From Deltaproteobacteria bacterium (GTDB lineage Bacteria; Desulfobacterota; Syntrophobacteria; BM002): a stretch of DNA of 32,813 nucleotides. Positions 3,311-19,655 of the stretch are shown in pieces. The position numbers were made by a program, and so were the translations under genes. Under the pieces are notes generated by a model. That model saw nothing but the letters and a program-made list of their open reading frames with translations. It did not search any database and was not told the origin of the DNA. The number at the start of each line of letters is the position of its first letter. Position 1 is the stretch's first letter. The stretch is from assembly GCA_019309045.1 (NCBI GenBank), contig JAFDGZ010000034.1, positions 1 to 32,813 on the forward strand. The letters are read 5' to 3'.

Positions 3311-4234
3311 CTACACAGAAGGCCTGGGTAGCAGACCCGCCCCCGAGACAATCTCCTCCACTCTTTCCTCCCATTCGATCGCCATGACATGCACGCCTGC
3401 AATACCTTGCATCTCTTTCATTTCCTGGATCTGTTCAATGGCAATCTGAATGCCTTCGGCAGCCTGTTTTTTCTTTTCCACGCCTTTGAGGCGGGTGATA
3501 TATTCCTCCGGCACATCGAGGCCTGGAACAAACTTCTGCATGTAGCGGGCCATACCCACTGACTTGAGTGGCGTGATTCCTGCCATGAGGTAGCACTTCT
3601 CTGTGAGCCCCTGATCATTGGCCTGCTTAACCCAGGTGCGGAATTTGTCCATGTTGTAGATGCACTGGGTCTGAATGAAATCCACACCAGCATCAATCTT
3701 TTTGGCAAGCCGAGTGACGCGAAACTCAAAGGGATCGCCAAAAGGATTGGCTGCCGCGCCAATAAAAAATTTAGGCACTCCCTCCAGTTCGTGATCGTTG
3801 ATGAGTTTTCCCTCGTCACGCATCTTCTTTACCGTGGCGATAAGTTGCATAGAATCGATATCAAAGACGTTCTTGGCCTGGGGATGATCGCCGAACTTCT
3901 GGTGATCACCCGACAGACAGAGAACATTCTTGATGCCCAGAGCAGAGGCGCCCAGTAGATCGCTCTGAATGGCAATGCGGTTGCGGTCCCGGCAGACCAT
4001 TTGTAAGTTCGGCTCCAGCCCTATGTCCAAAAGGAGGCGACAGACAGCAGTACTGCACATCCGTACCACCGCTGTCTGGTTGTCGGTGACGTTGACAGAA
4101 TCCACTATGCCTTTGAGGTACTCAGCTTTCTTACGAATAATCTCCGCATCTGCGCCGCGAGGAGGGCCGAGTTCCCCGGTGACAGCAAACTCACCAGCAG
4201 CAAACACCTTTTCCAAATTGCTTCCAGCTTTCAT
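3311..4234 (-). CDS. metF: Methylenetetrahydrofolate reductase (MetF)
   Basis: Flavoprotein that interconverts methylene- and methyl-tetrahydrofolate in the Wood-Ljungdahl methyl branch. The 307-residue product has the family motif GELGPPRGAD near the N-terminus, a central LCLSGDHQKFGDHPQAKNVFD stretch typical of the folate/FAD site, and an FIGAAANPF motif. The ATG start overlaps the metV stop by four bases (ATGA), so translation is coupled to the zinc/Fe-S partner. It is the last gene of the hdrA-mvhD-metV-metF unit and ends at the convergent hairpin. In acetogens MetF works with MetV and, in Moorella, with Hdr/MvhD subunits; a similar complex here is inferred from gene order. Confidence 0.95.
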   Translation of the reverse strand: MKAGSNLEKVFAAGEFAVTGELGPPRGADAEIIRKKAEYLKGIVDSVNVTDNQTAVVRMCSTAVCRLLLDIGLEPNLQMVCRDRNRIAIQSDLLGASALGIKNVLCLSGDHQKFGDHPQAKNVFDIDSMQLIATVKKMRDEGKLINDHELEGVPKFFIGAAANPFGDPFEFRVTRLAKKIDAGVDFIQTQCIYNMDKFRTWVKQANDQGLTEKCYLMAGITPLKSVGMARYMQKFVPGLDVPEEYITRLKGVEKKKQAAEGIQIAIEQIQEMKEMQGIAGVHVMAIEWEERVEEIVSGAGLLPRPSV

Positions 4235-4905
4235 TGTTTCAAATCCTCCCTGACAATCTTGCGAGGCCCACCGTCGCGACTGGTGGTCCAGTCCTTGTAC
4301 ATGAAAACCGACCTCATCTTGTCGAGCTGCCCCAGTTGGACCAGCCGCTCGTAAATAAGATGCCAGGCGCAGTCCGTCTCAGGGTTGATCTCGCACTTGC
4401 CGCCGGCCGAGCCCCCGCACGGTCCGTTCATCAGGCTCTTGGCACAACGCGCAATCGGGCAAATACCGCCAAAATTATGAATGATGCAAGTTCCGCAGCC
4501 TTGACAGAATTCTGCCCAGACGCCGTGTTCGAGAGCGCCACCCATAAAACAGGTGTTGAGCGCAGGCATGACGATTTGATCGCCATAGGCCCTGGCGATA
4601 AACTGCGGGCCCACACTGCACGCCATGGACAGGATGGCATCATAGTTGTTGGATTTGATAGGTTCCTCCAGTTGGGCAATGTACTCTGGATCACACTGAC
4701 GCTCCAGTGTCATCTCATCAATCTGTATCTCCCGTTTCTCCTTTTTTCTGGCGATTCGCAGACCGGAGGCCAGAATTCCTACCTCTTTCTGACCGCCAGC
4801 ATTGCACACCGTGACGCAACCTTTGCAGCCCACCAGGAGAATCTTGCCAAAAGGATCCGTCATTTGGAGGAGCTCCTCCATGGGCTTTCTCTCCGCAACG
4901 ATCAT
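4231..4905 (-). CDS. metV: MetV: cysteine-rich partner of methylenetetrahydrofolate reductase
   Basis: A 224-residue protein of the family annotated as methylenetetrahydrofolate reductase C-terminal domain-containing protein. It has CKGCVTVCNAGGQKE near residue 29 and a dense C-terminal Cys set (CQGCGTC, GGICPIARC, GPCGG). In acetogens MetV is required with MetF and carries metal or Fe-S sites linking the flavin to the electron donor. The start is set by AAGGAGG just before ATG 4905. The gene overlaps metF by four bases and follows mvhD by 72 bases, which fits a MetVF unit fed by HdrA/MvhD. Confidence 0.92.
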   Translation of the reverse strand: MIVAERKPMEELLQMTDPFGKILLVGCKGCVTVCNAGGQKEVGILASGLRIARKKEKREIQIDEMTLERQCDPEYIAQLEEPIKSNNYDAILSMACSVGPQFIARAYGDQIVMPALNTCFMGGALEHGVWAEFCQGCGTCIIHNFGGICPIARCAKSLMNGPCGGSAGGKCEINPETDCAWHLIYERLVQLGQLDKMRSVFMYKDWTTSRDGGPRKIVREDLKQ

Positions 4906-4977
4906 GAACTCTTACCTCCTTTGCAGTGGTTTCCCTTCCCAGTGCGTCCTGTTGCGGTGGAATTACTCAACCACGTG

Positions 4978-5385
4978 CTATCGCAGAGGGCTGGGGCCAA
5001 GCTCCTTGATCTTTTCTGTCATTTGTCGAGCCACTTCGACAAATGCTTGACCTTTTCCGGCTGACAATTGAAAAATCTCTACTCTTTCAGGTTCGACCCC
5101 CAGTTGTTCCAACATTTCTTTGACGAGATTCACCTTTTTGCGCGCCTTCTCAATGCCTTGGCGATATTGACAACTGTCTTCCTGGCAGCCTGCCACGTAG
5201 ACGCCATCAGCCCCATGCTCAATTGCTTTGAGCATGTGCAGGGTGTCCAGTCGACCCGTACACGGTATCTGAACAGCCCTGATGTTGGCAGGAAGTTGCA
5301 GGCCCATGTCGTCTGCCACCTGGGCTGCCGCAGAAGCGCAGTTGCTGCAAGTAAAGGCTACAATCTGAGGCTCAAAAGTAGTCAT
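4978..5385 (-). CDS. mvhD: MvhD-type iron-sulfur subunit (cysteine form)
   Basis: 135-residue electron-transfer subunit of the MvhD/FrhD family, a paralogue of the Sec form at 2680-3096. It carries CSNC at residues 13-16, IPCTGRLD, GADGVYVAGCQEDSC and the C-terminal LGPSPL shared with the paralogue. The start ATG has a GAAGGAG ribosome site. It lies between hdrA (97-base gap) and metV (72-base gap) on the same strand, so its likely job is to link the double HdrA to MetVF. HdrB and HdrC are not in the window, so heterodisulfide reduction proper is not implied. Confidence 0.92.
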   Translation of the reverse strand: MTTFEPQIVAFTCSNCASAAAQVADDMGLQLPANIRAVQIPCTGRLDTLHMLKAIEHGADGVYVAGCQEDSCQYRQGIEKARKKVNLVKEMLEQLGVEPERVEIFQLSAGKGQAFVEVARQMTEKIKELGPSPLR

Positions 5386-5481
5386 ATGAACTCTCCTTCG
5401 CTCCCTGTGTAATGGTCAACCTGTCGGCGACCTTTGTGCCTGGAGCCAGAACTCAAAGGCCCTGTCTTCGAGAAAACAAGC

Positions 5482-8256
5482 CTAACTGCTGAAGGTGGCG
5501 CTGATCTTGCCTATGATTTGTTCGTCTGTATAGGCAGCCATATTGATGGCCTTGCCCGGACACTCAGAGACACACATGCCGCATCCTTGGCAGAGAACGG
5601 GATCAATGGAGGCGGCACCTTCATCACTGTCAATAAAGGGCACTTGAAATGGGCAGGTGCGTACGCAAGTACAGCAAACCGCACACTTTTCGGGATCTAC
5701 CTGGGCAAATATGCCAGCTATTCGGATGCGGTCCTTGGCAAGAAGGCCCATGGCGCGCCCAGCAGCGGCCCAGGCCTCAGCAATGCTTTCTGTGGAAAAC
5801 TTCGGGCCCACGGCCAGACCAGCAAAGAACACCCCTTCGGTTTCAGAGTCCACTGGTCTCATCTTGGCCGGTGATTCAACAAGAAAGCCGTCTGTTCCTT
5901 GAGAGACCTTGAACAGGGTTGTCATTTTCTCGGAGACCCTGCTTTCAATGGCTGTTTGCAATGAGATGAAATCAGGGAAAATCTTGACCGATCTCTGCAA
6001 AACATGATCGACAACTGTGACCTCTAGCCCTCCCGCAGAGGTTTGTTGAACTTCAGGTTTCTGCTCGAGCGTGTAACGGATAAAGACTACACCCTTCTGC
6101 CGCGCCTCCTTGTAAAGTTCCTCGATAAAACCATAGGTGCGCATCTCCCTGTACAGCACATATATCTTCATGTCTGGATTTTTTTCTTTGAGATCAACAG
6201 CAGTGCGCACTGCATAGGAACAGCAAATCTTACTGCAGTACGGCCGTTGAGGCTCCCTCGAGCCAACGCATTGAATAAATACGGCACAGCCGGCCTGGTG
6301 GATCTCGGCTGGATCTTTCTGCAACTTCTCATTGAGATCGACCCAGCGAAACACCCGCGGGTGACTACCGCAAAGATATTCTGCAGTTTCAATGCTCGCG
6401 CCGCCCACTGCGAGAATGGTTGCACCATGCTCGACCTCTTTCCTGGTGCCGTCCTGCTGAACCGTACTCACAAAGTGGCCAGCAACTCCCTTGGTGGCCA
6501 CTACCTCTGCGTTCTTCATCACCGTGATGCTGTCGGTGGCCTCCACACGGCGGATCAGCTCTTCCAGATAATCCTGCAGCGCCTGACCTTGCCAGGTGGA
6601 CCGTACTTTTCTGGCATGGCCGCCCAATTGGCCGCTTTGCTCCACCAGGGTCACCGGAAAACCGTGGCTCGCCAAAGCAATGGCACTTTCCATGCCCGCT
6701 ATACCGCCGCCCACCACGAGCGCACTTTTCGATACCGCTATTTCTTTTAAAGGCTGCGGCTCTAGCAGGGCGGCCCGCACTACACTCATCTTCACAAGAT
6801 CAATGAGCATGCCTCTTTGAGAATCACCGCCACCCAGGGTGCGCAGATCCACCAGGTCGTAGAGGCACCTGTCGAGCCCAGCTCTGGCAAGAGCCTCCTC
6901 AACCAGCGGTTTATGGACGGCAGGAGTACAGCTGGCGAACACCAGCCTGTTGAAATTCTTCTCTTGGATCAATTGACTGAGGGCCGCTAACACGTCGCCA
7001 TTGCCTGCAGCAAGACTTTCTACGCCTACCACTGCCTCTATGTTTGCTGCCGCGGCAGCCGCCTCATCTAGTAATGAGCCGAGCCGTTGACTGGAGGCAG
7101 GACAGCTATAGAACACCACTCCTACTCGGGGTGCTTCTCCCTCGGTGGTTCGCATGGCCGGATAGTCTACTTTTACCTGGTAGGTCGGGGGCTTCAGGGA
7201 AGAAGTCACAGCCGCAGCAGCCGCACTTGCCTGCACCAATGACAAATTTATCTCTTGAGGTGCTGTCAGGGCACCACATACGAAGATTCCAGGCACCGAG
7301 GTGCTCACAGGTCGGAACACCTCGGTCTGCACAAAGCGTTCATTTGTCAAGGATATACCGAGTTTTTTTGCCAGCGACTCACTGTCTGCCGAGGGCTGGA
7401 GGCCCACTGACAGAACAACCATATCATAGATCTCGCTTTGTGCCCCGCCCTTCTCGTCAACGTAACTGATCACCAGGTCATCAGTTCCCGCAAGGCTGTC
7501 GACTGTATGCACTCTGGAACGTATCAGCCGGACAGCCAATTCTTTTGCCCTGTTGAGGTATTCTTCGAATCCCTTGCCGTGAGCCCGAAGATCCATAAAA
7601 AAAATGCTGGTCTCTGTGTCGGGCAGATTCTCTTTGACATTCACCGCTTCCTTGAGGGCATACATACAGCACACCGAGGAGCAGTAAGGAGCATCGCAGG
7701 CATTGATCTCACGCGAGCCTACACACTGTAGCCAGGCTATTTTGGCAGGCACCTTGCCATCAGATGGTCTCTTCACTATACCCTGAGTGGGACCGCCAGG
7801 TTTTTGCATCCCTTCGAATTCCATACTAGTTACCACATTCGGTAAAACACTATAGGAATAAGTGTCATAAACAGTTGGATCGAAGGGTTCGATACCGACA
7901 GCAAGAATGACGCCGCCCACCTTCAGGTTTATGCTCTCCCTATCGCTCTTCACTGTTGCCTCGAAGTTTCCCTGTTCACCCGAGAAACTCTCGAGTTCAG
8001 CATTGGTGATTATCTCAATGTTAGGGTGCTGGCTGGCTGCCGCTATCTGATCTTTCTGTTTACAGCAACTACACAACGGATAGATCCGGTACAATTGCGG
8101 CATTAGACCACCAAGTTGAGGCGATTTCTCCACCAGGTAGACGCCGTATCCTGCTTCTGCCAGATCCAGGGAAGCCTGAATACCGGCAACACCGCCACCC
8201 AGCACTAACACACGATCCACGGGGCTAGTTCCTGGCCAGACCTTTCCAGTGCTCAT
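5482..8256 (-). CDS. Tandem HdrA-like flavin/Fe-S electron-transfer protein
   Basis: Complete 924-residue fusion of two HdrA-type modules. Module one: FAD dinucleotide motif GGGVAG at residues 20-25, LCSCC, CVGSRE with YCSSVCC, and FFMDLRAHGKGFEEY. Module two: a partial HdrA N-terminal domain, a second FAD site VVGGGIAG near 515, another CVGSRE/YCSKICC pair, and a C-terminal two-[4Fe-4S] ferredoxin (CAVCCTCVRTCP, CQGCGMCVSECPG) about 853-900. HdrA flavins are the bifurcation site in known Hdr complexes. A single HdrA is normally about 650 residues, so this is a real fusion. AGAGGAG precedes ATG 8256. With MvhD and MetVF downstream it probably supplies or accepts electrons for methylene-THF reduction; that coupling is inference from gene order. 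It is a paralogue of the protein at 1-2696. Confidence 0.92.
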   Translation of the reverse strand: MSTGKVWPGTSPVDRVLVLGGGVAGIQASLDLAEAGYGVYLVEKSPQLGGLMPQLYRIYPLCSCCKQKDQIAAASQHPNIEIITNAELESFSGEQGNFEATVKSDRESINLKVGGVILAVGIEPFDPTVYDTYSYSVLPNVVTSMEFEGMQKPGGPTQGIVKRPSDGKVPAKIAWLQCVGSREINACDAPYCSSVCCMYALKEAVNVKENLPDTETSIFFMDLRAHGKGFEEYLNRAKELAVRLIRSRVHTVDSLAGTDDLVISYVDEKGGAQSEIYDMVVLSVGLQPSADSESLAKKLGISLTNERFVQTEVFRPVSTSVPGIFVCGALTAPQEINLSLVQASAAAAAVTSSLKPPTYQVKVDYPAMRTTEGEAPRVGVVFYSCPASSQRLGSLLDEAAAAAANIEAVVGVESLAAGNGDVLAALSQLIQEKNFNRLVFASCTPAVHKPLVEEALARAGLDRCLYDLVDLRTLGGGDSQRGMLIDLVKMSVVRAALLEPQPLKEIAVSKSALVVGGGIAGMESAIALASHGFPVTLVEQSGQLGGHARKVRSTWQGQALQDYLEELIRRVEATDSITVMKNAEVVATKGVAGHFVSTVQQDGTRKEVEHGATILAVGGASIETAEYLCGSHPRVFRWVDLNEKLQKDPAEIHQAGCAVFIQCVGSREPQRPYCSKICCSYAVRTAVDLKEKNPDMKIYVLYREMRTYGFIEELYKEARQKGVVFIRYTLEQKPEVQQTSAGGLEVTVVDHVLQRSVKIFPDFISLQTAIESRVSEKMTTLFKVSQGTDGFLVESPAKMRPVDSETEGVFFAGLAVGPKFSTESIAEAWAAAGRAMGLLAKDRIRIAGIFAQVDPEKCAVCCTCVRTCPFQVPFIDSDEGAASIDPVLCQGCGMCVSECPGKAINMAAYTDEQIIGKISATFSS

Positions 8257-8436
8257 AGGCCATACTCCTCTCTGGGCAGTACTAGGAAATACCTGCCTTT
8301 ACTACATCATCACTAGCTGGAGTTATAAAGTGTGGGGGAATGCATTGTCCCGACTTTGAAGTATGAAATACTTCTTGAAGATAGAAAAAAAGACCTATTT
8401 GCGATGTTTTTCTCATTATAATGGCAGCGTTACATA

Positions 8437-8465
8437 CCTATAAATAATTCACTGCTGGCTGTCAA
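8437..8465 (-). promoter_or_regulatory. Sigma70-type promoter for hdrA-mvhD-metV-metF
   Basis: On the minus strand a perfect -35 TTGACA (plus 8460-8465) is followed after exactly 17 bases by TATAGG (plus 8437-8442). The predicted transcript would start near 8430 and have a leader of about 170 bases before hdrA. This suggests that the hdrA unit is transcribed separately from fhs-folD. Confidence 0.6.
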
Positions 8466-8506
8466 GGGCAAAGCCTGAGCGAACACTTACCCTCCCGTTG
8501 GCCACA

Positions 8507-8539
8507 GGGCGAGCCATGAAAGCTTCATGGCTGTCGCCC
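8507..8539 (-). terminator. Hairpin after folD
   Basis: A 9-bp perfect stem, AGCCATGAA (8512-8520) with TTCATGGCT (8524-8532), is extended by GGGCG/CGCCC (8507-8511, 8535-8539) across a two-base bulge. There is no T run on the minus strand, so termination is possible but not certain. It lies between the folD stop and the hdrA promoter. Confidence 0.4.
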
Positions 8540-8573
8540 ATGGTCAGTGGAAGAGACTGCTTTTCACCCACTA

Positions 8574-9458
8574 CTAGAGGTTGTGGTGCACTCGAGCCGC
8601 CTGCACAGTGTTCTTCATAAGCATGGTAATGGTCATAGGACCAACGCCACCAGGAACAGGTGTGATTGCCGAGGCAACCTCCACCGCTTCATCAAAGGCA
8701 ACGTCTCCTTTGAGGATGCGTTTGCCTTCAGGAGTTCTTCCCACCTCATTGACGCCCACATCGATTACCACTGCCCCCGGCTTGATCATATCTCCTTTGA
8801 CGTACTCGGTCACCCCAGCTGCCACAATGAGAATGTCGGCTCGCTTTGTGTGGAAGGCCACATCTTTTGTACGAGTATGGACCACAGTAACGGTAGCATT
8901 AGCACCTGGACCTTTCTGCATAAGCATGGCAGCGATGGGCTTGCCAACGATGTTGGAACGCCCCACCACCACCACCTCGGCACCTTCAACCTGGGTCCCT
9001 GAGCGGATGAGCAACTCTTGTATGCCAAAGGGTGTACAGGGTCGATAATAGGGATTGCCAATGAGCAGTTTTCCCACGTTGGTTGGATGAAATCCGTCCA
9101 CATCCTTGTCTGGATCAATTGCCAGCAGGACTTTCTGATCGTCTATAGCCTTCGGCAGGGGAAGCTGCACCAGTATACCGTGAATCTTGGGGTCTTTGTT
9201 ATACTTGTCAATGAGACCGAGAAGGTCAGCTTCGCTGATATCTTCAGGCTGATTGTCCTGCACCGAATAGAAGCCGAGTTCATGCGCCGCTTTTTGCTTG
9301 GCACGGACATAGCTCTGCGAAGCGGGATTCTCGCCCACGAGTATAGTTACCAATCCGGGCTCCACACCGTGCTTTTCCTTCATTTCAGCCACTTCCTGCT
9401 TCAGCTCAGCACGGATCTCTTTGGCCACCTCCGCTCCTTTGATTAGTTTTGCTGCCAT
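8574..9458 (-). CDS. folD: Bifunctional methylenetetrahydrofolate dehydrogenase/cyclohydrolase (FolD)
   Basis: Cytoplasmic enzyme that interconverts formyl-, methenyl- and methylene-tetrahydrofolate, the middle steps of the methyl branch. At 294 residues it is of normal length. Motifs seen: VGENPASQSYVRAKQKAA with the catalytic Lys region, a VQLPLP segment, the Rossmann loop VVGRSNIVGKP, and the C-terminal signature PVPGGVGPMT. AAAGGAGG precedes ATG 9458 and follows a terminator-like hairpin within about 15 bases. It is downstream of fhs on the same strand with a 150-base gap. Confidence 0.96.
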   Translation of the reverse strand: MAAKLIKGAEVAKEIRAELKQEVAEMKEKHGVEPGLVTILVGENPASQSYVRAKQKAAHELGFYSVQDNQPEDISEADLLGLIDKYNKDPKIHGILVQLPLPKAIDDQKVLLAIDPDKDVDGFHPTNVGKLLIGNPYYRPCTPFGIQELLIRSGTQVEGAEVVVVGRSNIVGKPIAAMLMQKGPGANATVTVVHTRTKDVAFHTKRADILIVAAGVTEYVKGDMIKPGAVVIDVGVNEVGRTPEGKRILKGDVAFDEAVEVASAITPVPGGVGPMTITMLMKNTVQAARVHHNL

Positions 9459-9473
9459 AGTTCTCCTCCTTTA

Positions 9474-9509
9474 GAAAAAGGCTAGGCAGGGCCCCGCGCC
9501 CTGCCTAGC
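9474..9509 (-). terminator. Terminator-like hairpin between fhs and folD
   Basis: A perfect 11-bp stem (9481-9491 with 9499-9509, loop CCCCGCG) is followed on the minus strand by a CTTTTTC run. This is the form of a Rho-independent terminator. The folD ribosome site begins only a few bases later, so it would reduce readthrough from fhs into folD. A second, T-less hairpin (9559-9566 with 9584-9591) lies just after fhs. Confidence 0.65.
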
Positions 9510-9608
9510 TCGCATCAAATTCACCTGAACTTCTTTATGCTCTCCGGGTCCAGCCGTTTCTGTCCCTTAGAATCCAATCACCTGGGACAGACAGTGAAGT
9601 GCTCTTAG

Positions 9609-11372
9609 CTAGAAAAGCCCCGTCACCTTGCCAGTTTTCACATCCACATCCACCCTGCGGAAGGCTGGGTCGGAGCAGGTTCCCGGCATCAGGCTGATGG
9701 TACCGCAGCAGGGGCAGAGGAACTTGGCCCCCGAGAAGATCAGCACATCACGAACGGGGAGAGTCCACCCTTTGGGCACACCCTTCACTGCCGGATCATG
9801 CGTCAGTGAGAGGTGCGTCTTCACCATCATGGTGGTGTAGTCGTCATACTTGGGATCGGACTCGAGCATCTTGGCCTTGGCCTCGGCCTCAGGTGTCCAG
9901 GTCACCCCATCAGCGCCGTAAACGTTCTTGGCAATAGTTTCGACACGATCCCGCAGTTTCATTTCGATAGGGTAGAGGAATTTGAATTCGGATTCTTCGT
10001 CACAGGCATCCATCACCGCATCAGCAAACTCGAGGGCACCATCGCCGCCATCAGCCCAGTGAGTAGAAACGGCGCAGCGCGCTCCTGCTTCCTCGGCATA
10101 CTTTCTCACCAGAGCAATTTCATCCTTGGTATCTGTGTGAAAGCAATTGATACACACCACCGGATTGATCCCCGACATCCTGATGGTGTTGATGTGATGC
10201 ACCATGTTGGCAACACCCTTTTCCAGCAATTCCAGGTCCTCATGCTGGTACTCTTCGGGCAGGGGCAGACCAGCCACCACCTTGGGACCGCCGCCGTGCA
10301 TTTTCAGAGCACGAATGGTGGTGGTGAGCACGGACACATGAGGTTTCAAGCCACTGTAACGGCATTTGACGTTCCAGAATTTTTCGAAGCCGATATCTGC
10401 GCCAAAGCCGGATTCTGTCACATGGTAATCGAAAATCTTGAGACCTACGCGGTCGCCAATAATGGAAGATTGCCCCACGGCAATATTGGCAAAGGGCCCA
10501 GCATGAACCATGCATGGCTGGTATTCCGCGGTGCACATCAAGGTAGGATTAATAGTATTTCGCATCCAGGCGGTCATGGCATTGCCCACTTCCAAATCGC
10601 GGGTGGTTACCACATCGCCCTTTTTATCGAAGGCTACCGTGATGTTGTTCAACCGCTCGCGCAGGTCTGCCAGGTCACGGACAATTGACAAGATAGCCAT
10701 AAGTTCCGAACTCACCGCGATGCCGAATTTGGACTGCATCATGAAACCGTCATACCGGCCGCCGATGCCAATGATGATGTTTCGCAGGGACTGAGCACAG
10801 AAATCCATAATCCAGCCCATCTCAACACGGGTGGGATCAACCTCCAGTCTGCGCATGCGAGTAAGACGCTGCAGTTGTTCGTCATTGTAGTTGCGTTCAT
10901 GCTGCATCCTCGCTGTGAGGGCAGTCATGGCCAAGTTGTGGGCATTCATGATGTCATTGATATCGCCGGTAAGACCCATGGAAAATTCGGTCATGGGAAT
11001 GAGCAGAGAATTGCCGCCGCCGGCCGCAGTCCCCTTTATATTCATAGTGGGACCGCCCGAGGGCTGTCGCAGACAGCCACCCACATTGACGCCTCGCTTG
11101 CCCAATCCCTCCATGAGGCCGCAAGAGGTGGTGCTTTTGCCCTCGCCAAGTGGTGTTGGCGTAATAGCAGTTACCTCGATGTACTTGCCGTCTGGCTTGT
11201 CCTTCAATCTCTCAATGATCTTCAGAAAATCCAGTTTGCACAATCTTCCCATGGGGAGGATCTCGTCTTTTTCCAAACCAAGCTTCTCTCGCCACTCATC
11301 AGGAGTGGGCATGTTTTTCTCAGCTGCCTCCGAAATTTGCCAGTCTGCCATTTTTACTGCGTCATAAGCCAT
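9609..11372 (-). CDS. fhs: Formate-tetrahydrofolate ligase (Fhs)
   Basis: ATP-dependent enzyme that joins formate to tetrahydrofolate, or makes ATP in the reverse direction. The 587-residue product has the P-loop-like TPLGEGKST near residue 72, the GLRQ-type segment as [56 protein letters not shown], and the C-terminal [10 protein letters not shown]. The length agrees with the family. AAGGAGGGA precedes ATG 11372. It is the first gene of the minus-strand C1 cluster and lies beside the putative replication origin. In a sulfate reducer or syntroph the reaction may run in either direction. Confidence 0.97.
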
Positions 11373-12040
11373 AGGAATCTCCCTCCTTATCCTTGTGGGA
11401 ATCTCTAAGGTATCCTCCTTTTTTTCTTTTCCTGCCCGAGGTTTAAAACTCTGCCAAAATCACCTCCTTTTTTTTGCTATAGTAGAGCCGTGCTCACAGC
11501 TGAGCTTTTGAAAAACCCTCTTTTTTCTGCCTCAATCCAAAAGACACTATACTCCCCAGTCATGACAAAAGAGCCATATCAACTTCGACTAGGGATCACC
11601 ATATTTTCATATCGTGCAGGGTGCGTATTAGGTGAAACAGCAACAATGACTACCTTCATGTCCCTGAAATCAAGGTTGGCAACTACCAGTCTATGGGCAT
11701 GATCGGTGTTTCTCCCAAAAGAGAGATACCTCAACGCAGAGTATTCGGTAGCTAGGACTAGGCAGTTCTGCTACTTCAAGAAAATAATCCTTTTCACATA
11801 GTTTACCACAGATTTATGTCAGGATGACGGCTTTTGTCAAGACAAAAATAAATTCCTATTTCATTCGTGGACTATGATGAAGGAAAAAAATTCATTGCTA
11901 TTTTTTGGCTTTTTATCTATAGTAGCAGCCAGATTATTACAGGGATATCAACAAGTTTAGCAAACTTTCAACTATGGATTTTGCCCGTGGTGAGTATTGT
12001 CTTTTTCAGCACGACCTAGGAATAACAAAGAGATCTAACC
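11373..12040. other. AT-rich intergenic region, candidate part of oriC
   Basis: A 668-base gap between divergent fhs and dnaA. It is rich in A and T, especially 11838-11925. No consensus DnaA box TTATCCACA was seen on either strand. Two near matches in the same orientation, CTTTTCACA (11790-11798) and TTTACCACA (11802-11810), each differ at one position from TTWTNCACA and are 12 bases apart. CTATAGTAG occurs twice (11477-11485 and 11917-11925). The assignment rests mainly on the neighbouring dnaA-dnaN-gyrB-gyrA order. Confidence 0.5.
11895..11923 (+). promoter_or_regulatory. Candidate dnaA promoter
   Basis: TTGCTA (11895-11900) and TATAGT (11918-11923) are separated by 17 bases and match the sigma70 consensus at 4/6 and 5/6 positions. 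The start would lie near 11930, giving a leader of about 110 bases before dnaA. Confidence 0.4.
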
Positions 12041-13357
12041 ATGCCTTCTCCCTGGTCTCATATTTGTGACTTTCTACAGAAGACAATCGACTCCGTGGAT
12101 TTTTCCCGCTGGATCAAACCAGTGCAGGCTGAATTCTTGGACAGAGGCATACTCGTGCTGCGTCCACCGAGTAGATATCACTGTGAATGGTTCCGTGAGC
12201 ATTACCTGGATCTTATCCTATCCTACTGCCGGCAAATCGACCACAACCTCCACATCAAGATCGAGACACCCGCATGTCGCAACAGGTCAAAAGACCACTC
12301 CATCTCTTTGACCAAAACTCTCTCTAGAGTTCCAGATCTAGATAGTTCCAAGAGCTTTGACACTCTCCTAGTTGGCTCCTTTAATCGATTCGCCTTCAAT
12401 GCTGCCAAGAGTTTCTCAGAAAAGCCTGTCATGAGTTTTAATCCCCTGCTTATTGAAGGAGCCCAAGGGAGCGGCAAGACTCACTTTCTTCAGGCCATTG
12501 CCAACAGGTATTCGAGTAGGAACCAACAAATCCCCCTCCTTTTAGACTGCCGTCACTTTGGTGCACAAGATGTTGCCTTGCTTAGATTCCTCCACGAAAA
12601 CAGCAATTACTGCAGCAAAACTGTTTCTATTCTGCTGATTGATAATATGCACTTGTTGCCGAAGCGAGACAAATTGCAGCAGCACTTGTGCCATCTGTTC
12701 GACTATTTCTATGATTTACCCAAACCAATGGTATTTACCTCAGATGGTTTGCCTGGACTGCTTCCCTCTCTGGAGCCTGCTCTACGGTCTCGACTCAACT
12801 GGGGTTTAGTTGCCCGAATAAACGAACTTACCTTTGAAGACTCAATGCGAATTCTTGCTAAACTTTGCAATGGCCTTAACGCCTCTCAGAGCAAGTCAAT
12901 TAGAGCATTTGTTCAGTTATACAGGCCAAAATGTTTTGCTGACATCCTTGGATGTGTTGAAAAACTTAAACTTTTTATACAAAACGGGGGCATCAGTATC
13001 AACAGGCAGCTGTTGGACCAGACAAGAGGAGAGGAAGAAGCTATTCTGCTAATTCAAGGGCTCATATGTAAAGTATATCATCTGCAACCCCAAGATCTGT
13101 GCGGTACCAGCAGGCAGGTGGCCGTGAGCAACGCTCGTCATATGTGCATGTATTTTTGCAAAAATATGACATCTCTAAGCTACGCTAAAATCGGCAGTTA
13201 TTTTGGCAGTAGGAATCATTCCACCATTATTCATGCCTGCCGTAAAGTTCGAGCAGAGATAAAAAGAAACCCGGAATTTGCTCAAGAAGTTGTAAAGCTT
13301 GAAAGGGATATCTATAAACTTTTAAAGAGAAAAAATTTAATAAAAAAAGAAGGTTAA
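12041..13357 (+). CDS. dnaA: Divergent DnaA replication initiator
   Basis: 438-residue DnaA-family AAA+ protein at the expected place, directly before dnaN. Domain I (WSHICDFLQ...WIKPVQAEF) and a short linker precede an AAA+ core with Walker A GAQGSGKTH (G140-H148) and an arginine-finger region LRSRLNWGL (R251). Several usually fixed positions differ. Walker B reads LLIDN (D201, N202) where DnaA normally has DD. The sensor II segment normally NVREL reads CFADI (A300 in place of Arg). The DNA-binding signature normally GGRDHTT reads GSRNHST (N392, S394). The start codon has only a weak ribosome site. It may be the only initiator, with altered ATP use and box recognition, or a degenerate copy with a normal dnaA elsewhere. 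Base composition is lower in G+C than in the flanking metabolic genes. Confidence 0.85.
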   Translation: MPSPWSHICDFLQKTIDSVDFSRWIKPVQAEFLDRGILVLRPPSRYHCEWFREHYLDLILSYCRQIDHNLHIKIETPACRNRSKDHSISLTKTLSRVPDLDSSKSFDTLLVGSFNRFAFNAAKSFSEKPVMSFNPLLIEGAQGSGKTHFLQAIANRYSSRNQQIPLLLDCRHFGAQDVALLRFLHENSNYCSKTVSILLIDNMHLLPKRDKLQQHLCHLFDYFYDLPKPMVFTSDGLPGLLPSLEPALRSRLNWGLVARINELTFEDSMRILAKLCNGLNASQSKSIRAFVQLYRPKCFADILGCVEKLKLFIQNGGISINRQLLDQTRGEEEAILLIQGLICKVYHLQPQDLCGTSRQVAVSNARHMCMYFCKNMTSLSYAKIGSYFGSRNHSTIIHACRKVRAEIKRNPEFAQEVVKLERDIYKLLKRKNLIKKEG

Positions 13358-13438: not shown

Positions 13439-14560
13439 ATGGAATTTACCATTCAAAAAGAAGACTTTCTCAAAGGCTTACAAAAGGCTCAGAGTGTTGC
13501 TGAAAAAAGGAGTTCAATGCCAATCCTCTCCAACGTGCTCATTGAAGCAAAAGAAGACGCCATTCAACTAACAGCAACCGATCTCGAAGTAAGCTTCACA
13601 GGCAAATACCCTGCGCAAATATTTGCCCAGGGAGCCATTACTGTCCAGGCTCGCAAATTTTACGAAATTGTAAAAGAACTCCCTGCTGCAGAAATAAAGG
13701 TGACTGAAAAAGAAAACCAATGGCTTCACATCTCGAGTGCTAATTCAGAGTTCAATCTGGTTGGCCTGCCGCCCGATCAATTTCCCCAAGTGGCAAGACA
13801 CGACGAATTGCCATGGATTTCAATGGATTCTCCACTGCTCAAAGACATGATAGATAGAACCATCTTTGCGGTCTCTACTGAAGAAACCCGCTACAATCTT
13901 GCCGGCATTTATTTTGAAAAGATATTTGCAGAAGAAAAAGCAACAGGTTTGAGACTGGTAGCAACCGACGGCCACCGCCTTTCCATGATGGAAAGACCTC
14001 TGGAAAATATAGAACAATTTCCTTTTCAGAAAGGTGCAATCGTGCCGAGGAAGGGGATGTATGAAGTCAGTCGACTTTTAGAGGAAGCGGCAGAGGTAAA
14101 AGTAGCATTTGATGACAATAATGCCGTGTTTCAGTTAGCAGAAACCTCTCTTGTTGTCAGACTTATCGATGGAGATTTTCCGGATTATTCTACGGTAATA
14201 CCAAGAGAATTCAAAATAACTCTGGAAATAGAACGAGAAAAATTTATGGAGATGCTCAAGCGGATGATTATTATTTCTACTGACCGCTACAGAGGAATTC
14301 GCTGCAATATCACTGAAGGTTCTATAGAAATTATATCCAATAACCCGGAAATCGGCGACGCAAGAGAGCAAATGCCGATCGCTTATTACGGAGATGATAT
14401 GACAATAGCTTTCAATCCCAGGTACTTCTTAGATGCTCTTTCAGTTATGAGTAGTGAGAAAATAACAATAAATATGGTAGACCAATCTAGTGCCTGTATC
14501 ATCTCTGGCAACGATGATGAGGGATATTGCGCTATTGTTATGCCAATGCGTTTAGAATAA
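13439..14560 (+). CDS. dnaN: DNA polymerase III sliding clamp (beta subunit)
   Basis: Ring-shaped clamp that tethers the replicative polymerase to DNA. The 373-residue product has the normal family length and typical stretches: MEFTIQKEDFLKGLQKAQ, RSSMPILSNVLIEA, TDLEVSF, VATDGHRLSMM, and the C-terminal VMPMRLE. AAGGGG precedes the ATG. It follows dnaA by 81 bases. Base composition is clearly AT-rich: positions 13441-13500 hold 23 G/C of 60, against 36 of 60 in the gyrA stretch 17521-17580. Confidence 0.97.
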   Translation: MEFTIQKEDFLKGLQKAQSVAEKRSSMPILSNVLIEAKEDAIQLTATDLEVSFTGKYPAQIFAQGAITVQARKFYEIVKELPAAEIKVTEKENQWLHISSANSEFNLVGLPPDQFPQVARHDELPWISMDSPLLKDMIDRTIFAVSTEETRYNLAGIYFEKIFAEEKATGLRLVATDGHRLSMMERPLENIEQFPFQKGAIVPRKGMYEVSRLLEEAAEVKVAFDDNNAVFQLAETSLVVRLIDGDFPDYSTVIPREFKITLEIEREKFMEMLKRMIIISTDRYRGIRCNITEGSIEIISNNPEIGDAREQMPIAYYGDDMTIAFNPRYFLDALSVMSSEKITINMVDQSSACIISGNDDEGYCAIVMPMRLE

Positions 14561-14689: not shown

Positions 14690-17110
<2,421 letters not shown>

Positions 17111-17213: not shown

Positions 17214-19655
17214 ATGGGGGAGCAACTCTCTAGTATCAGAATAGAAGATGAGATAAAGCAATCGTATCTCGACTATGCTATGAGCGTCATCATAGGCAGG
17301 GCCCTGCCAGATGTTCGAGATGGACTAAAACCGGTCCACCGCCGGATTCTCTATGCCATGCGCGAGTTGGGCAATGATTACAACAAACCTTACAAGAAGG
17401 CAGCCAGAATAGTCGGTGATGTCATCGGTAAGTTTCATCCCCATGGTGATGCAGCAGTCTACGAGGCCTTGGTTCGAATGGCGCAGGATTTTTCCATGCG
17501 CTATCCCCTGGTAGACGGTCAGGGTAACTTTGGCTCAGTTGATGGCGATCCCCCCGCGGCGATGCGGTACACGGAAGTACGACTCAGCAAGCTGTCACAG
17601 GAGTTTCTCAAGGATCTGGACAAGGAAACTGTAGATTTCGTCAGCAACTATGACGGCTCCCTGTTCGAGCCCTCTGTGCTTCCCACGGTTGTGCCCAATC
17701 TCTTGGTAAACGGCTCAGCTGGCATTGCCGTGGGTATGGCCGCCAATATACCACCGCACAATCTCTCTGAGGTGATTGACGCACTGCTGGCAATGATAGA
17801 CGAACCGGATATAGAGCTGGATGCTCTCATGGAGTATATACCAGGGCCGGATTTCCCTACTGCTGCTACCATTTACGGCATGCGAGGCATCCGGGAGGCA
17901 TACAGGACTGGCAAGGGGCTGATCAAAGTACGGGCCCAGACAGAGGTAGAAGAGACCAGGGTGGGACGGCAAAGAATTGTCGTAACCGAGCTGCCTTTTC
18001 AGGTGAACAAGGCAAAGCTGCTCGAACGAATAGCTGACCTGCTGAAACAGAAAAAGATCGAAGGCATAAGAGACATCCGCGATGAATCGGATCGTCGAGG
18101 AATGCGGGTGGTTATCGAGCTCAAGAGAGACGAGCAACCTGAGGTGATTCTCAACAACCTGTACCGCCATACCCAGATGGAAGCCACCTTTGGCATCAAT
18201 ATGCTGGCCATTGTGCACAATAGACCGGAATTGCTTTCTCTGCGCGACATCCTCGCGCATTTTCTGGAACATCGCCGTGGTGTGGTGCTGCGACGAACCG
18301 CTTTTGAACTTAGGAAAGCAGAGGAGCGCGCCCACATCCTGGAAGGTTTGAAAATAGCCCTGGAGAACATCGACGCTATCATTGAGCTCATCAAGAGGGC
18401 GGAAAACCCAAAGGCTGCCAAAGGACAGTTGCAGGAGCGCTACGGCTTCAGCGATGCTCAGGCCCAGGCGATTTTGGATATGCGCTTGCAGCGGCTCACC
18501 GGCCTGGAGCGAGAACGTATCATTGAGGAACACAAGAATCTGCTGCAGGAAATTGCCAGGCTGCGCGGTATACTGGACAATCAGGAGGTGCTCAATGCCG
18601 AAATCCGCCAGGAGCTGCACCAATTGAAAGAGCAGTACGGAGACAGCCGCCGCACCAGGATAGTGCAGCAGACGCAGGAACTGGAACTAATAGACTATAT
18701 TGCCGAGGAGGATGTGATTGTTACGGTTTCTCATGCAGGCTACATCAAGCGGACTCCGGCGAGTACCTATAGAAGTCAGCGTCGAGGAGGAAAGGGCCGC
18801 ACAGGAACCCGGCCGCGCCAGGAAGACTTTGTTGAGACGCTTTTTGTCGCTTCCACTCACGATCATCTGCTGTTTTTTACCAGCCTGGGTCGTTTGCACT
18901 GGTTGCGGGTATATCAGATTCCTCCGGCCAGTCCTCTGGCGCGTGGCAAAGCCGTGGTCAATTTGCTGCAGCTTCGACCTGATGAACGGGTGGCTACCAT
19001 CCTGCCAGTGCGGGAATTTGCAGCCAGCACCTATGTGGTCATGGCCACTCGCAGGGGTGTGGTGAAAAAGACAGATCTGATGGCCTTTCGCAATCCCCGA
19101 GTTGGTGGAATCATTGCAGTCAAGATCAGTGAGGATGATGAACTGATAAGTGCCAGATTGACGCACGGCAACGAACAACTCTTCTTGATGACCCAGGCAG
19201 GCAAAGCCTTGCGATTTCCTGAAAATGAAATCAGACCCATGGGACGAGCAGCTCGGGGTGTCAGAGGCATGGATGTGAATGGCAGTGCTCTGGTGGGCAT
19301 GGAGGTTGTCAATAATGAAGCCACGATTCTGACGGTAACTGAGAATGGTTTTGGCAAGAGAACGCCCACCACGGCATATCCTCTGCGCCGGCGGGCAGGC
19401 AAAGGGGTACTCACCATCCGAACCAGCAAAAGAAATGGCATGGTTGTCGGCTTCCGGCAGGTAAATGATCTCGATGAAATCATGCTGATCACTGATCGCG
19501 GCAGGATTATTCGCATGAGGGTGAATGAAATTTCGGTGATCGGCAGGATTACCCAGGGCGTACGACTGATAGATATCGAAGCGGGTGAAAAAGTGGTAGA
19601 CCTTACCTGTCTTGCCGAGGTGGAGGACGGACAGCAAGGAGCAGAAAGAAATTGA
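17214..19655 (+). CDS. gyrA: DNA gyrase subunit A
   Basis: Breakage-reunion subunit of DNA gyrase, 813 residues. The catalytic tyrosine is Y119 in AAMRYTE. The GyrA box QRRGGKG in the first blade of the C-terminal beta-pinwheel marks it as gyrase, not ParC. It is shorter than the E. coli protein and lacks a long acidic tail. At the quinolone-determining loop it has [10 protein letters not shown], that is Ala80 and Glu84 at the positions of E. coli Ser83 and Asp87; these are natural variants in several bacteria. AAGGAAG precedes ATG 17214. Its TGA overlaps the gpsA ATG by one base. Confidence 0.97.

Follow-up and report, generated by a model that had tools for sequence, protein, structure and literature searches.

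In Escherichia coli and Caulobacter, the initiator protein DnaA is switched off through its sensor II Arg after initiation. In E. coli, where this residue is Arg334, ATPase activity, RIDA and DDAH depend on it, but functional initiation complexes form without it (PMC5742627). Its replacement by Ala (R334A in E. coli, R357A in Caulobacter) blocks ATP hydrolysis or inactivation (PMC5742627, PMC3193534), and the Caulobacter R357A protein over-initiates and cannot replace DnaA as the only copy (PMC3193534). Another residue of the E. coli protein, Arg285, is required for ATP-dependent activation (PMC5742627). Two dnaA genes in one genome have been described in Acidaminococcus fermentans, in a dnaA-dnaA-dnaN arrangement (PMC4403523).

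We analysed a 32,813-nucleotide stretch of DNA (hereafter the window) from a deltaproteobacterial genome, G000. It contains a dnaA gene next to dnaN, and the same genome codes for another DnaA elsewhere. As in A. fermentans, there are two dnaA genes per genome; however, the A. fermentans genes are in one cluster, whereas those described here are unlinked and highly diverged, with differences at the residues of the ATP switch. We called DnaA-II the copy encoded in the dnaA-dnaN-gyrB-gyrA locus, and DnaA-I the unlinked copy that has kept the sensor II Arg. No description of such a pair was found in the literature searched.

A divergent DnaA encoded next to dnaN

The dnaA-II gene (positions 12041..13357; forward strand, as are all features below unless stated) is an ORF with an ATG start that codes for a protein of 438 residues. 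A Pfam search identified the domains DnaA_N (domain I, residues 4-64, 12050..12232; PF11638, E 1.4e-11), Bac_DnaA (PF00308) and Bac_DnaA_C (domain IV, residues 337-403, 13049..13249; PF08299, E 7.1e-24), in that order. DnaA-II resembles the DnaA proteins of TIGR00362, including those of Bacillus subtilis (8btg) and Aquifex aeolicus (1l8q), in its domain order (I, III, IV) and in having the Walker A Lys, the arginine finger, a helix-turn-helix domain IV and dnaN as a neighbour. The AlphaFold2 model of the window protein has a pLDDT of 85, and its best PDB matches are DnaA structures. In contrast with those DnaAs, the window DnaA-II scores only 269.7 bits with TIGR00362, below the equivalog cut-off of 343.9, no cluster of DnaA boxes lies beside its gene, and four characteristic residues are replaced, namely the Arg residues of sensor II and box VII, the second Asp of Walker B and the one in the DnaA-box signature. 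The DnaA-related inactivator Hda also has a DnaA-like AAA+ core, but it is devoid of domain IV, whereas the window protein has both domains I and IV.

The gene order of the locus is dnaA-II, dnaN (13439..14560; TIGR00663, 333.9 bits), which starts 81 bp 3' of dnaA-II, gyrB (14708..17110; TIGR01059), gyrA (17214..19655; TIGR01063) and then gpsA. Divergently from dnaA-II, the reverse strand (3311-11372) carries genes for methylene-THF reductase, an HdrA-like flavoprotein, FolD and formate-THF ligase. Relatives keep part of this cluster, so that the methyl branch of the Wood-Ljungdahl pathway adjoins the dnaA-dnaN locus. The window has no Rfam match and no tRNA gene.

The first-pass annotation had pointed out the motifs LLIDN and GSRNHST and an Ala at the sensor II position. 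Alignment with B. subtilis DnaA (8btg) using HMMER showed that these residues are present and were placed correctly, which rules out a shifted alignment of the three segments: N202, at the second acidic position of Walker B (codon AAT, 12644..12646), corresponds to D215, A300 (12938..12940) to the sensor II residue R313, and N392 (13214..13216) to D413 of the DnaA-box signature. The canonical residues D202, R300 and D392 belong to the 73 columns in which identity among 32 canonical DnaAs reaches 97% or more. Also as annotated, the Walker A segment GAQGSGKTH (residues 140-148, 12458..12484) and the arginine-finger segment LRSRL (12782..12796) are retained, and their residues Lys146 and Arg251 do not vary across the 32 rows of an alignment of which the window sequence is one. 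A further substitution had been missed, A247 (12779..12781) in the box VII Arg column, which we assigned to E. coli R281. Conversely, S394, previously listed as a departure from the signature, is ordinary, since all canonical relatives sampled have Ser there: the motif in the phylum's canonical dnaN-linked DnaAs is (G/R)(K/R)DHST.

Only some of these changes are shared by the other DnaA-II proteins. The sensor II Arg is gone from every one of them, replaced by Ala in the window protein, Ser in L013 and His in the rest, and the box VII Arg column is altered in all (Ala, Gly or Ser). In contrast, only the window protein has D202N and D392N: all other DnaA-II proteins have Asp at the former position and read RDHST at the latter, in agreement with the DnaA-box signature (R/K)DH(T/S)T from which the RNHST of the window protein departs, and the domain IV signature is otherwise conserved in the group. 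The window DnaA-II does not have two acidic residues in Walker B, and the variants LEK, LER and IDG are found in other natural DnaAs. Equivalents of D202N and D392N are known from genomes with a single DnaA. L110 and L120, DnaA-I-type proteins from sister orders that are the sole copy in their genomes, read RNHST in domain IV. The Dehalococcoidia sequences L045 and L051 read GGRNHAT. Because similar changes are found in DnaA-I-type proteins of sister orders that are mostly alone in their genomes, neither D202N nor D392N is a clear lesion. The additional substitutions of the window protein add little.

A second DnaA and the distribution of the pair

A search of genome G000 with PF00308 revealed a second full-length DnaA, DnaA-I, on contig C90 (L001:1171-2526). 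It scores 421.5 bits with TIGR00362 and is not encoded near dnaN. The first-pass annotation had called for such a search, and would have taken a canonical dnaA elsewhere with clear DnaA-box arrays as refuting its interpretation. This applies by half: a second dnaA exists, but the copy found is itself unusual, with LILEE as Walker B and NRTHATV in the DNA-binding domain, and a DnaA-box array was found at neither gene of G000.

The family compared comprises 13 genomes, which represent the whole of this uncultured Desulfobacterota order among the genomes examined. Most of those complete enough to tell have both DnaA-I and DnaA-II. The sister orders of the class have DnaA-I-type proteins only, mostly as single copies and with no dnaN beside them, and DnaA-I alone can therefore suffice. 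In these sister orders, the DnaA-I-type proteins L107-L120, which are mostly the sole DnaA, have LLLEK or LLLER in place of the DD pair of Walker B, and the Asp is missing from their DnaA-box signature as well; they are examples of natural DnaAs whose Walker B is not canonical. One sister-order genome, G017, harbours near-identical DnaA-I copies (L114 and L115) on different contigs, reflecting a recent duplication or an assembly mixture.

The sensor II Arg is kept by every DnaA-I and every canonical copy examined, including the 28 canonical dnaN-linked DnaAs of the phylum (28/28; L162-L189). The unlinked DnaAs, i.e. DnaA-I and the sister-order copies, form a separate clade (support 100/100), and some genomes of other families carry both kinds. 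Both have kept the sensor II Arg in family f18 and in genome G205. In contrast, the dnaN-linked copies of families f36 and f51 (L198, L200, L226, L230 and L231) have Lys instead, and four of the five genomes concerned were found to code for DnaA-I as well. They are similar to DnaA-II in being linked to dnaN, in having lost the sensor II Arg and, for L226, in the Asn that occupies the second acidic position of Walker B as in the window protein, but they differ from it by the nature of the replacement and by forming a separate clade. The fifth genome, G119 (family f51, 97% complete), showed L226 only, a protein with the sensor II Lys and FDN in Walker B. It may be that a DnaA without the sensor II Arg suffices alone in this organism, or that DnaA-I is missing from the assembly. 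Family f21 has yet another two-DnaA arrangement (L215/L237 and L217/L236), with an unlinked copy that is canonical-like but reads GGRNHTS in domain IV.

Phylogenetic analysis sets the Lys clade (100/100) apart from DnaA-II, but a common origin was not rejected (AU p 0.43), and hence the sensor II Arg was lost independently once or twice. In the free tree, DnaA-II is on the side of the canonical dnaN-linked DnaAs; a clade that groups it with DnaA-I was not rejected, however (AU p 0.097 and 0.515). Gene order favours descent of DnaA-II from a canonical dnaN-linked DnaA over descent from DnaA-I.

Upstream region and position of the origin

A sigma-70-like promoter, TTGCTA-17-TATAGT (11895..11923), lies upstream of dnaA-II. 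It is preceded by an inverted repeat, TTTTGTC-AA-GACAAAA (TTTTGTCAAGACAAAA; 11832..11847). Both elements align with relatives, and their conservation extends from the window to other genera. In G000 and G002, another genome, a perfect copy of the repeat is present only upstream of dnaA-II, and the other copies are inexact. The inverted repeat may be an operator for some regulator or part of an origin.

The locus had been described as the origin locus in the first-pass annotation. Its gene order is in agreement with this description, but the GC-skew evidence is weak. Clusters of at least two TTWTNCACA motifs, upstream or downstream, were found at none of the nine DnaA-II loci, whereas at least two such motifs are present upstream at 8 and downstream at 6 of the 28 canonical dnaN-linked loci; these canonical loci are about 20-fold enriched in the motif. 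Similarly, there is no origin-like cluster among the 36 exact TTATCCACA sites of G000. The GC skew of genomes for which 8.5-12% of the sequence was sampled was uninformative on origin position. For G002 (37% sampled), the skew peaks near 1.3 Mb and lies flat at its minimum between 2.5 Mb and the contig end, a stretch that takes in DnaA-II (2.89 Mb) and leaves out DnaA-I (2.06 Mb); three of 20 permutations did equally well. The skew of G002 thus weakly, and not significantly, favours an origin near DnaA-II over one near DnaA-I. With no box cluster and no significant skew, the term origin locus rests on gene order.

Possible roles of the two DnaA proteins

An altered ATP cycle, as proposed in the first-pass annotation, is the best reading of the substitutions because the sensor II Arg is absent across DnaA-II. 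An altered box specificity, which it proposed together with the former, is possible but unproven, as RDH is retained by the other DnaA-II proteins and Asn is found at the same position in the sole DnaAs L110 and L120. In the window protein, the sensor II residue is replaced by Ala as in E. coli R334A and Caulobacter R357A, and DnaA-II is similarly predicted to stay ATP-bound. However, those are laboratory mutants, whereas the loss in DnaA-II is natural, fixed across an order and found beside a sensor-II-bearing DnaA.

Our preferred reading, to which sequence comparisons lead us to give roughly even chances, is a two-DnaA lineage in which DnaA-I would be the main, switchable initiator and DnaA-II a maintained, hydrolysis-impaired accessory protein outside the ATP/ADP cycle. 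We assign the former role to DnaA-I because the sister orders live with DnaA-I alone. DnaA-II would bind ATP and join DnaA filaments via its retained arginine finger, and with poor or no ATP hydrolysis it would stay on, independently of the ATP/ADP cycle. Most likely it would not be the sole initiator but an accessory protein at the origin-proximal locus, through co-assembly or competition with DnaA-I, and/or an autoregulator of dnaA-II-dnaN. For the window species, N202 would lower hydrolysis still more, and N392 may change which boxes are preferred.

The roles might also be reversed, with DnaA-II itself initiating replication at a dnaA-dnaN origin under the regulation of DnaA-I, e.g. as an Hda-like partner or a transcription factor, so that control would operate by amount or through DnaA-I rather than by hydrolysis by DnaA-II itself. 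Linkage to dnaN-gyrB-gyrA is the usual origin arrangement, the skew-minimum plateau of G002 contains DnaA-II and not DnaA-I, no Hda was found in G000 by the PF00308 search, and Arg334 is dispensable for initiation complexes in E. coli (PMC5742627). We nevertheless hold this reversal to be unlikely, given that the sister orders of the class have DnaA-I only, that DnaA-I evolves more slowly and scores far higher with TIGR00362 (421.5 versus 269.7 bits), that no box cluster is present at the DnaA-II locus and that R357A is no substitute for DnaA in Caulobacter (PMC3193534). The missing box cluster would also fit with DnaA-II being out of initiation altogether and regulating transcription locally, in the dnaA-II-dnaN-gyr cluster, perhaps through the inverted repeat. 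The conservation of this repeat and of the promoter, the presence of the perfect copy at this place only in G000 and G002, and the otherwise conserved domain IV signature are consistent with such a function. However, the repeat is unlike a DnaA box, and a simple repressor does not need domain I and an AAA+ core with the Walker A Lys and the arginine finger, all of which are retained; we regard this function as quite improbable.

The first-pass annotation had also considered a decayed copy. DnaA-II evolves much faster than DnaA-I, the identities between G000 and the sister genus g2 being 33-37% for the former, the lowest within the DnaA-II group, and 61-64% for the latter. Nine near-invariant positions, including those of D202N and D392N, are changed in the window DnaA-II only, which keeps 36 of the 73 canonical positions. 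However, its relatives keep 36-44 of these, and its branch, at 1.56 as summed from the tree, is not clearly faster than those of other members (roughly 1.1-1.5). In addition, the 438-residue ORF, Walker A and the arginine finger are intact, the promoter and inverted repeat are conserved, the model (pLDDT 85) best matches DnaA, and the dN/dS of DnaA-II in genus g2, 0.06-0.13, indicates purifying selection. A decaying, non-working gene is thus very unlikely. That the odd residues come from an assembly error or from a foreign contig in the bin is hardly credible: G000 is fragmented (211 contigs) with an estimated contamination of 3.46%, but about ten independent assemblies have the same gene order and the sensor II loss, and the neighbouring fhs gene is about 90% identical to those of relatives. 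DnaA-II is, by all appearances, a real, maintained divergent DnaA and one partner of a two-DnaA arrangement that is found in this order and also in other parts of the phylum.

We tentatively suggest that two DnaAs might split initiation in parts of Desulfobacterota, an idea that we consider possible but somewhat doubtful. The unlinked DnaA-I would keep the ATP switch, and the dnaN-linked copy would have become, once or twice, a natural ATP-locked partner through loss of the sensor II Arg. An order with the sensor II loss fixed at the usual origin locus, beside an Arg-bearing DnaA, amounts to a natural experiment: it allows one to ask whether a second protein can take over the ATP switch. As the phylum includes genomes of all three types (only DnaA-I, only a canonical dnaN-linked DnaA, or the two together), this pattern can be tested across it.
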